Shown piece by piece: positions 34,821-63,885 of a stretch of 64,000 nucleotides of DNA. Below the pieces are notes generated by a model. It ran no database searches, was not told where the DNA came from, and worked only from the letters and a program-made list of their open reading frames with translations. Origin of the DNA: Halovivax gelatinilyticus (lineage in GTDB: Archaea > Halobacteriota > Halobacteria > Halobacteriales > Natrialbaceae); contig NZ_CP101322.1 in the NCBI RefSeq assembly GCF_024300625.1, forward strand, positions 261,992-325,991, in the 5' to 3' direction. The translations under genes and the position numbers were made by a program. Numbering within the stretch: position 1 is the stretch's first letter; each line of letters starts with the position of its first letter.

Positions 34821-35930
34821 CTACGGCTGGAAAAGAACCGAACCCGGATCGGCGACACCGCGGTCGGATTCTTCGGTCTCAGCACGCGTTCGAACCGACT
34901 CAGGATCGAATCGGTTTCTGTCCATATTTGGTTTCAATCCGGCTCGTTCGATGACCTCGAGATCAGCGGCTGCTGACTGCCCCTCCGTCGTCAGGTAGTC
35001 GCCGATCAATAAGCCGTCAGCACCGGTGCGAAATGGACGGGTTGTTCGTCTACATCCAGCATCACCTCGCGTCCCCCGGTCAACCGCACCGTCGCGCTGG
35101 GGTGTAACAACCGATACACCGCGATCGTCGCGAGTAGTTCCTCGGTCGTGATCGCCGGCGAATCGCCGAACCGATTGCCCAGGGGCGTTCCGGGAATGGG
35201 ATTGAGCACGTTCACCGGAAATGACGAAATTCCAATCTCCTGGAGCGCAACGGCTGCGTCGACTCGGTCGGTCGGAGACACGCCCATCCCGAGGATCACG
35301 CCGGCACAGAGATCCATGCCGGCGGCCTTGGCGACCTCGAGCGTATGTACCCTGTCTTTGAAGGAGTGAGTGGCCACTACCTCGGGGAAGAATCGCCGCG
35401 AGGTCTCGATGTTGTGATTGTAGTGATTGACGCCCTCCTCGGCGAGTGTTGTTGCTTCTTCCTGCGTCCAAGATCCCGAGCGAAGCGTCCACCTCCAGCG
35501 CAGTCTCGTCGCGAACGAGCCGGATCGATCGCAGTACCTGCGCCCACTCGTCCGGTCGCGTTTCTTTCGAGACACCCTTTTCAGCGACGACGATCCCGAA
35601 TCGTTGTGCGCCATCGCGCTCGGCGCGCCTGGCTGCCTCGAGAACCGAGTCAGGTTCGAGAAAGTCGTAGGTCTCGATCCCGGTATCGAAATGGACGGAT
35701 TGAGCGCAAAATTCACAATCCTCGGCACAATTCCCGGCCTTCGCGTTGACGATCGAGCACACGTCGACGGTGTCGTCGCCGAAGTGTGCCCGGACGTCGT
35801 TCGCAGCTGCGGCGAGTTCGTCGACCGGCTGTGCGATCAATGCGAGTCCGTCACGCCGATCCAACTGCTCGCCCGAGAGGACGCGATCGACCGCCTCGTC
35901 GATCGTCCGGTTACCTGTTTCGTAAACTAT
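34821..35930 (-). pseudogene. bioB: Biotin synthase bioB, broken by two compensating frameshifts and an ATA start
   Basis: Radical-SAM biotin synthase would convert dethiobiotin to biotin. The N-terminal part (from 35930) reads VYETGNRTIDEAV through the Fe-S motif CAEDCEFC and ...EVDASLGILD. Near 35465 there is one extra base: dropping it restores DQEEATTLAEEGVNHYNHN. The second part stays in that frame until about 35024-35029, where one base is missing; then the reading returns to GADGLLIGDYLTTEG and the C-terminus. The codon where ATG is expected (35928-35930) is ATA, about 25 nt after a TATA box. Sequencing error could explain the shifts but not the ATA. Total 1110 nt, normal length. Confidence 0.85.
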
Positions 35931-35950
35931 TTTGAACGCTGCGTTTGCGA

Positions 35951-49872: not shown

Positions 49873-50748
49873 TCACGCTCTCAGTGAGAGGCAGGCGAGG
49901 GTGGCGAACAGAGCCTCCTCCGTTCGCACGACCTCGCTGCCCTGGTTCGGAACCGTGTTCAGCCAGAGGTCGAACCCCGGATCGGCGCTGGGTTCGACTC
50001 CGTCTGTCGCCTCGTCGTCCCCGGTGGACGGCGAGCCGACACGTGACTCCTCGATTCCGAGGATGTCCGGCAGCCCTCTCTCGGGCGCCCCGAACGCGAC
50101 GGTCATGCCGTCGCGATCGACGCGTCCGGCCAGCGTCTCGAGTCGTCCGACGGTGAGCGATTCACCGTAGCGAGACGACGCGATGCGAACGCCGGCGTCC
50201 TCACGGCCGAGCGCTGCCGATAGGTCCGTCCGCTCGATCGACAGCCCCGCAAGGGGCTCGTCGACGAGCTTCGCCCGGACCGGTCGTCGCGAAGAGATCC
50301 TGACGGTCACGCGTTCTCCCTCGTCGACCGCCATTTCTGGCGGGACGTTGAGCGAGAGTGGGTGTTGCGTTCCGCAATTGACCCGGACGCGGCCTTCAGG
50401 TCCGACCTCGGTCACGATCCCTCGTCTTAACGACCCCGAATCGTCCGATTCGGAGCCGGTCCGTTCCGAGGCGCGGAGCGGCGGCAAGATGCCCGCGTAC
50501 TCCAGTTCGTCCCGCATGTCCCAGACCTCGTTTCGGAGGTACGGGGGCGTTGCGGCGTACCGGAGTACGGTTTCTACGAACCCGCCGTCGTACCGACCTG
50601 TTTCGCCTTCCCGATCGGGAAAGACGATCAATCGGTCCGCCCGGAAGATCGTCGCCGCGCGGGCGACGTATCCGAGTTTGCGAGTCGCCTCGCGTTTGTC
50701 CTCGGCTTCCCTGACGATCGACGACGGCACGAGTACGCTGACGGTCAT
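49873..50748 (-). CDS. Putative RNA methyltransferase, SPOUT fold (PF02598 / C9orf114 type)
   Basis: First gene of the ribosomal-protein block, 291 aa. SPOUT-type core: VSVLVPSSIVREAEDKREAT, then IFRADRLIVFPD, with an inserted OB-like domain in the middle and knot-forming sequence GMTVAFGAPERGLPDILGIE at the C-terminus. The family is related to human SPOUT1. Its RNA target in archaea is not established to my knowledge. The placement upstream of rpl3, 4 nt away, makes a ribosome-related role likely. Confidence 0.85.
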   Translation of the reverse strand: MTVSVLVPSSIVREAEDKREATRKLGYVARAATIFRADRLIVFPDREGETGRYDGGFVETVLRYAATPPYLRNEVWDMRDELEYAGILPPLRASERTGSESDDSGSLRRGIVTEVGPEGRVRVNCGTQHPLSLNVPPEMAVDEGERVTVRISSRRPVRAKLVDEPLAGLSIERTDLSAALGREDAGVRIASSRYGESLTVGRLETLAGRVDRDGMTVAFGAPERGLPDILGIEESRVGSPSTGDDEATDGVEPSADPGFDLWLNTVPNQGSEVVRTEEALFATLACLSLRA

Positions 50749-61023: not shown

Positions 61024-61704
61024 TTAAGCTTCAGACGTCGATCCGGTCGGTTCGAGGTCGCTGGCGATCGTCTCCGCGAGCAGGTTCGCGGTGCCGCGTC
61101 GCAGCGTCGCCGAGAGCGCCTGTTCGGAGACGTCGAACGATTCGGCGAGCGACGAAAGCGTCGTCCGGCGCGGAACGGCGAAGTATCCGGCCTCGAAGGC
61201 GACCCGGAGCACTTCCTTCTGGCGCGACGTGAGCGCCCCGTCTGCCTCGTCCATGGCGCCGTCGCGATACAGTCCGACGAGAGTGAATTCGAGATCGCGG
61301 TCCTCACAGACGTCTCGGTACCGAACTAACGTCTCGCGGTCAGGTACACGCGCGCGATACCGTACCGTCTCACCGGTCGCCGAGATCCGCAGGAACGTGA
61401 TTCCTAGCTCGACGGCGACGGGGTAGGTCAACCCGCGCTCTGCATCCGAGGCAAGTTCGACCCGGTACAGCCGACGGCCGTCGACGTTCGCCAGCCGACA
61501 CGCGTTCGAAACCGTCGGATCGGTTTGAATGGACTCGTCGAACCGTTCGAGCGATGGTTCGGAGCCGGTAGCCCAGGCGGTGATGATCGACGTTCCATCG
61601 TCGGAGACGAACTCGTCGACGACGTCGTACTCGACGTCTGGAACGCCGGCTCGTGCGTCGGCGAGTATCGGGTTTTCGAGTTCGTACTCGGCGATGAGGC
61701 TCAT
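61024..61704 (-). CDS. Bat-like helix-turn-helix regulator (HTH_10)
   Basis: 226-aa regulator. The N-terminal half (about 1-150) fits a Bat/GAF-like sensory region. The C-terminal HTH_10 domain: LTSRQKEVLRVAFEAGYFAV (start about 160), then LAESFDVSEQALSATLRRG. HTH_10 regulators include the bacterio-opsin activator Bat. Target unknown; no bop gene in the window. Confidence 0.88.
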   Translation of the reverse strand: MSLIAEYELENPILADARAGVPDVEYDVVDEFVSDDGTSIITAWATGSEPSLERFDESIQTDPTVSNACRLANVDGRRLYRVELASDAERGLTYPVAVELGITFLRISATGETVRYRARVPDRETLVRYRDVCEDRDLEFTLVGLYRDGAMDEADGALTSRQKEVLRVAFEAGYFAVPRRTTLSSLAESFDVSEQALSATLRRGTANLLAETIASDLEPTGSTSEA

Positions 61705-63855: not shown

Positions 63856-63885
63856 CGTAAACCGACGTAATATCTTCGGTTTACG
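63856..63885 (-). promoter_or_regulatory. BirA-type biotin operator overlapping the bioYMN promoter
   Basis: A perfect 10-bp inverted repeat: CGTAAACCGA (63856-63865) and TCGGTTTACG (63876-63885), with a 10-nt spacer. Read as a biotin operator it is GTAAACC, 14 nt, GGTTTAC. This agrees with the known bacterial/archaeal BirA consensus core. The minus-strand TATA-like GATATTA (about 63868-63874) lies between the arms and about 29 nt before the bioY ATG at 63841. A bound repressor would therefore block TBP/TFB. Regulation by biotin is inference. Confidence 0.85.

Follow-up and report, generated by a model that had tools for sequence, protein, structure and literature searches.

A putative BirA operator enclosing the bioY promoter of Halovivax gelatinilyticus and its counterparts across the haloarchaea

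The bioY locus, its upstream repeat and the BirA protein

Near the right-hand end of the window, a 64,000-nt stretch of Halovivax gelatinilyticus contig NZ_CP101322.1, three consecutive genes encode the BioY substrate component, an ECF-type ATPase and a CbiQ/T component (Table 1). Their grouping in a single operon is that of a BioYMN biotin ECF transporter and agrees with an earlier sequence-only reading of this DNA, which had placed bioYMN downstream of an operator. A Bat-type HTH_10 regulator (61024-61704, minus strand) lies on the same strand directly 3′ of the operon. Elsewhere in the window the Rfam L4-Archaeoglobi ribosomal protein leader (RF03135) is matched at 50300-50399 on the minus strand with 67 bits, against a cut-off of 34.5 bits; the match sits in a haloarchaeon, and the family is named for Archaeoglobi.

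Ahead of bioY, and separated by 15 nt from its ATG (63841, minus strand), is an inverted repeat. The arms that the sequence-only reading had described, GTAAACC (63857-63863) and GGTTTAC (63878-63884), are present and perfectly inverted around a 14-nt spacer; its slightly wider coordinates (63856-63885) are accounted for by the perfect repeat, which extends to 10 bp per arm (CGTAAACCGA, 63856-63865, and TCGGTTTACG, 63876-63885) with a 10-nt spacer. The minus-strand GATATTA that it had noted in the spacer is located at 63868-63874. On the bioY strand the outer flanks of the site are TC...GC rather than the published TT...AA. GTAAACC-N14-GGTTTAC occurs once, without mismatch, in the window and nowhere else in the 3,700,630-bp genome, against 2.8e-5 (window) and 0.0016 (genome) copies predicted by a first-order Markov model trained on the window; together with the fixed geometry conserved in relatives, this bears out the statement that the match is hard to explain by chance. 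Sites with two or three mismatches elsewhere in the genome were not accepted as regulon members, their count being only about 2.7 times that of a reversed-pattern control.

The genome encodes one BirA (P0001; C1:3357804-3358739). The presence of an N-terminal winged helix, named beforehand as a check, is confirmed by a match to HTH_11 (PF08279) at residues 15-54 (41 bits; cut-off 25 bits). The catalytic and C-terminal biotin protein ligase domains (PF03099 and PF02237) both score above cut-off, the protein matches TIGR00121 at 162 bits against a cut-off of 83 bits, and residues 15-303, that is, through the HTH, align to the known structures of the E. coli and S. aureus BirA repressors (PDB 1bia, 6apw). 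P0001 possesses all the domains that characterize a bifunctional (Group II) biotin protein ligase. A second match to the BPL_LplA_LipB family, at C1:791464, looks from its sequence more like a lipoate ligase than like BirA.

Table 1. Coordinates of the genes and putative regulatory elements in the window
Feature	Position	Strand	Basis
bioY, ECF biotin-transporter substrate component, 218 aa	63185..63841	-	PF02632, E 7e-36, 124 bits
bioM-like ECF ATPase, 237 aa	62464..63177	-	PF00005; best NCBIfam = ECF_ATPase_1
bioN-like ECF T component, 235 aa	61760..62467	-	PF02361 CbiQ
Putative BirA operator, GTAAACC-N14-GGTTTAC	63857..63884	-	Sequence; position kept in haloarchaeal bioY promoters
Upstream operator arm on bioY strand, GTAAACC	63878..63884	-	Site positions 1-7, near-invariant over 68 genera except positions 2-3
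Downstream operator arm on bioY strand, GGTTTAC	63857..63863	-	Site positions 22-28, all but 22 and 26 near-invariant
BRE-like CGAAG, first base common to upstream arm	63874..63878	-	Site positions 7-11; G8 A9 A10 conserved; fits haloarchaeal BRE consensus CGAAA (PMC4983044)
TATA-like TATTA in spacer, ~28-30 nt 5′ of start codon	63868..63872	-	Class-conserved TTNAW, site positions 14-18
bioB, apparent pseudogene	34860..35930	-	Two frameshifts (about 35470 and 35040); GTG start codon of four congeners replaced by ATA
Apparent decayed bioB operator, GCAAACG-N13-AGTTTAC	35922..35948	-	3 mismatches, spacer one short

Conservation and promoter architecture in the haloarchaea

BioY was found in 369 of 391 haloarchaeal genomes, and the upstream regions of 153 bioY genes were compared. 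One set, from which the 25 genomes selected for an exact site, the window and two congeners were left out, consists of 120 HTH-bearing genomes picked by BioY homology. In these motif-blind promoters GTMAACC-N(13-15)-GGTTKAC occurs with at most one mismatch in 112/120 cases and with at most two in 116/120, as compared with 0.1% and about 1%, respectively, of dinucleotide-shuffled promoters. Across all 148 HTH-bearing entries, 82 sites have no mismatch, 58 have one, four have two, and four have three or more. The repeat is conserved at a fixed position 5′ of bioY in close relatives, as the sequence-only reading would have it, and in distant ones as well; congener G071 and Halovivax asiaticus JCM 14624 (NZ_AOIQ01000021.1) both possess the operator and BioY. 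Many haloarchaeal lineages carry arms of the form GTCAACC/GGTTGAC. The spacer is N14 in 141 of 144 sites in the class and N13 in three, the latter found in the HTH-bearing genomes G121, G060 and G134 (loci L204, L136 and L137). When the class was scanned for the exact motif with spacers of 13-16 nt allowed, a site was present in 96/391 genomes, nearly all of those listed being N14; the reversed pattern matched in three genomes.

A good bioY site is missing from four of the 148 HTH-bearing genomes: one arm is lost in G378, no site is seen in G136 and G261, and G128 shows three mismatches. The first three retain a perfect operator at bioB; G128 falls outside that account. Diverged downstream arms, AGTAAAC and GGTAAAC, are seen in L194 and L195 (G128 and G053; f7g39), and G020 contains two bioY genes (L079 and L080), each with its own operator.

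A scan for the repeat together with its downstream genes had also been proposed. The pattern GTAAACC-N14-GGTTTAC-G-N13/14-ATG, run against 84,980 species, returned 66 matches, 57 of which precede bioY (46 haloarchaeal and 11 bacterial). Every one of the 46 haloarchaeal matches is followed by bioY; among the 20 from other organisms, ten are followed by bioY according to tblastn, nine by unrelated genes, and one (L260) probably by bioY, its N-terminus being the same as that of two bioY matches and the gene being cut by the end of the locus.

The promoter was profiled using one bioY sequence from each of 68 genera. Strong information resides in the arms and their immediate flanks (TC...GA), in the start-codon region and in two elements within the spacer, namely G8 A9 A10, read as CGAA(G) once the final C of the arm is included, and, at site positions 14-18, TTNAW. 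Both agree with the consensus reported for haloarchaea, CGAAA for BRE and TTWT for TATA (PMC4983044). The remainder of the spacer varies while the arms are near-invariant, and no further conserved promoter-like element was seen in the 30 nt 5′ of the operator across the 68 genera. Since, beyond the operator itself, conservation is seen only in the BRE/TATA-like element that it encloses, the proposal that the operator wraps the bioY promoter is supported for the class as a whole. The start codon follows the site by 14, 15 or 16 nt in 61/67 genera, which puts the centre of the TATA-like element approximately 27-28 nt 5′ of that codon, the distance to be expected if the transcript is leaderless. 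Such transcripts make up 72% of the coding transcripts of H. volcanii (PMC4983044), and those of bioY and bioB are probably leaderless in these species, in the case of bioY judging from the spacing.

The second target is bioB, for which an operator was found in 13 genomes of eight genera; 11 of these sites fit the degenerate consensus exactly, and the other two have one mismatch each. An A/T-rich TATA-like element comes first and the site follows it 3′, running into the gene such that codons one to three of bioB (usually GTG GTT TAC) form the final nine bases of the operator. Both the gene and its operator are intact in four congeners of the window's organism, in which the gene is broken (Table 1). 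The frameshifts taken alone could be sequencing errors; their combination with a lost start codon and a decayed operator makes this look like real decay. The broken bioB suggests biotin auxotrophy, or else sequencing error; if the decay is real, the organism would depend on BioY for its biotin, which fits its intact bioY operator.

With the BRE-like and TATA-like elements situated between the arms, a bound BirA dimer should cover them and occlude TBP and TFB. The position of the bioB site, 3′ of its TATA-like element and over the start codon, is compatible with blocking of polymerase rather than of TBP. That BirA binds but activates, or acts as a roadblock to elongation, we regard as very unlikely, given that the element lies between the bioY arms in nearly every genus, where a bound dimer and TBP/TFB would overlap, and that BirA acts as a repressor where its biotin operators were tested (PMC4016012).

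Joint absence of the BirA HTH and the operator

A query with the BirA HTH was positive in 371 of the 391 haloarchaeal genomes. Fourteen of the 20 negative genomes (G001, G002, G007, G050, G069, G079, G089, G140, G145, G178, G258, G269, G273 and G319) also lack BioY and any match to BirA, and may be free of biotin altogether. The other six have BioY. One of these (G317) was excluded, both its BirA and its BioY appearing to be damaged, which leaves five genomes of two genera (G318, G360, G124, G174 and G346) with an intact BioY and an HTH-less BirA. The bioY operator is absent from all five. In G318 and G360 the missing operator was noticed first and the missing HTH second; in G124, G174 and G346, whose BirA begins at the ligase linker, loss of the HTH was found first, the absence of the operator was predicted before the upstream regions were read, and the prediction was then confirmed.

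In a tree of the BirA ligase the two HTH-less genera stand apart, each beside a neighbor which bears both HTH and operator (G142 and G121); well-supported branches require two separate losses of the HTH, a single shared loss being rejected. The co-loss comprises five genomes in two lineages. For the association between HTH and operator, Fisher's exact test returns p = 2e-7 when genomes are counted and 0.001 when genera are, values which include the motif-selected genomes and treat as independent genomes that are not.

These data also bear upon the identity of the regulator. Bacteria possess other biotin regulators, for instance BioR (PMC4554459), and the palindrome might be the operator of a BioR-, BioQ- or orphan-type protein. 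That this is so appears highly improbable: the operator is absent where BirA lost its HTH in two independent lineages, the core of the arms matches the BirA box (PMC545781), and the same site at the same spacing is found ahead of bioY in Bacillota.

Interpretation and comparison with known BirA systems

We consider it very probable that the repeat is a BirA operator controlling a probably leaderless bioY-ATPase-T uptake operon, with biotinoyl-AMP as co-repressor and with TBP and TFB excluded from the promoter. With biotin in ample supply and the acceptor proteins already carrying it, BirA would accumulate biotinoyl-AMP and dimerize, each winged helix of the dimer binding one operator arm. The bound dimer would cover the BRE and TATA elements between the arms such that TBP and TFB could not assemble, and the uptake genes would be off. 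When biotin is scarce the operator would be empty and the bioY operon transcribed. Binding by BirA, biotinoyl-AMP as the signal and repression through exclusion of TBP/TFB are what we infer from the sequences compared here. A palindrome arisen by chance, an RNA hairpin or a terminator element can be dismissed as vanishingly improbable: inverted repeats are common, and a GTAAACC-like repeat at C1:527523 has hairpin form, but so few exact copies are expected per genome, near-invariance over 68 genera holds for the arms but not for the spacer bases beyond the promoter element, conservation and fixed geometry refute chance, Rfam is blank at the operator, and an operator overlapping the TATA-like element should not be part of the transcript. 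A riboswitch or attenuator was likewise considered and rejected, Rfam revealing neither near bioY.

More broadly, it is likely that haloarchaeal BirA competes with eukaryote-like basal factors, its operator being fused with BRE/TATA at bioY and with the first codons at bioB, and this composite being erased whenever BirA becomes ligase-only. If true, an entire class of archaea would have built a bacterial-type repressor into its promoters, in two fixed arrangements. As far as the literature found shows, the case for archaeal BirA has so far rested on prediction. A class-wide fixed operator with two targets and two independent co-losses brings the archaeal BirA switch within reach of a direct test in a haloarchaeon amenable to genetics; the co-loss represents a clean natural experiment on the joint loss of a repressor and its sites, and a biotin-controlled promoter could serve as a tool in halophiles.

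The BirA box was described by Rodionov et al. 2002 (PMID 12368242), as given in PMC545781 and PMC4016012, as TTGTAAACC-[N14/15]-GGTTTACAA. The title of that paper claims conservation of the BirA regulon in Archaea, where the role of BirA was then a prediction. In comparing the repeat with the known biotin signal, the sequence-only reading was correct as to the seven-base core of each arm and the N14 spacer; in place of the outer TT/AA that the bacterial consensus shows, haloarchaea have TC...GA. Bacterial boxes also vary at the outer TT/AA (PMC545781 Table 1), and this pair is for that reason treated here as consensus and not as a defining position. An inverted core, a spacer of 14 nt, bioY downstream and an HTH-bearing BirA in the genome were all found and, by these features, the window site is a member of the known BirA-box kind. 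The tolerated A-to-C and T-to-G change has its counterpart in the GTcAACC/GGTTgAC variants of delta-proteobacterial boxes (PMC545781), and the targets are biotin genes in both cases, bioB in the published regulon and both bioB and bioY in haloarchaea.

The regulator shares the order of HTH, catalytic and C-terminal domains with the Group II ligases of E. coli, B. subtilis and S. aureus (PMC4016012), but P0001 is archaeal and halophilic, and its binding to DNA in molar salt is a prediction. BirA has been proposed to be among the oldest transcription factors, HTH-bearing forms being present in Bacteria and Archaea (PMC3199775). Eleven bacterial records, mostly from Bacillota, have the exact site 14-15 nt from the ATG of bioY, a likeness in spacing that the pattern itself selected for and that may be fortuitous; those promoters are without BRE/TATA. 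In contrast, the haloarchaeal site has a BRE/TATA-like element built into it and stands at a constant distance from a start codon that is probably leaderless. An incomplete search of the literature found no description of the BRE/TATA fusion, of a bioB operator overlapping the start codon or of the paired loss of HTH and operator. Provisionally, it is the promoter architecture, the overlap with the bioB start codon and the co-loss that the haloarchaea add to the known BirA regulon.
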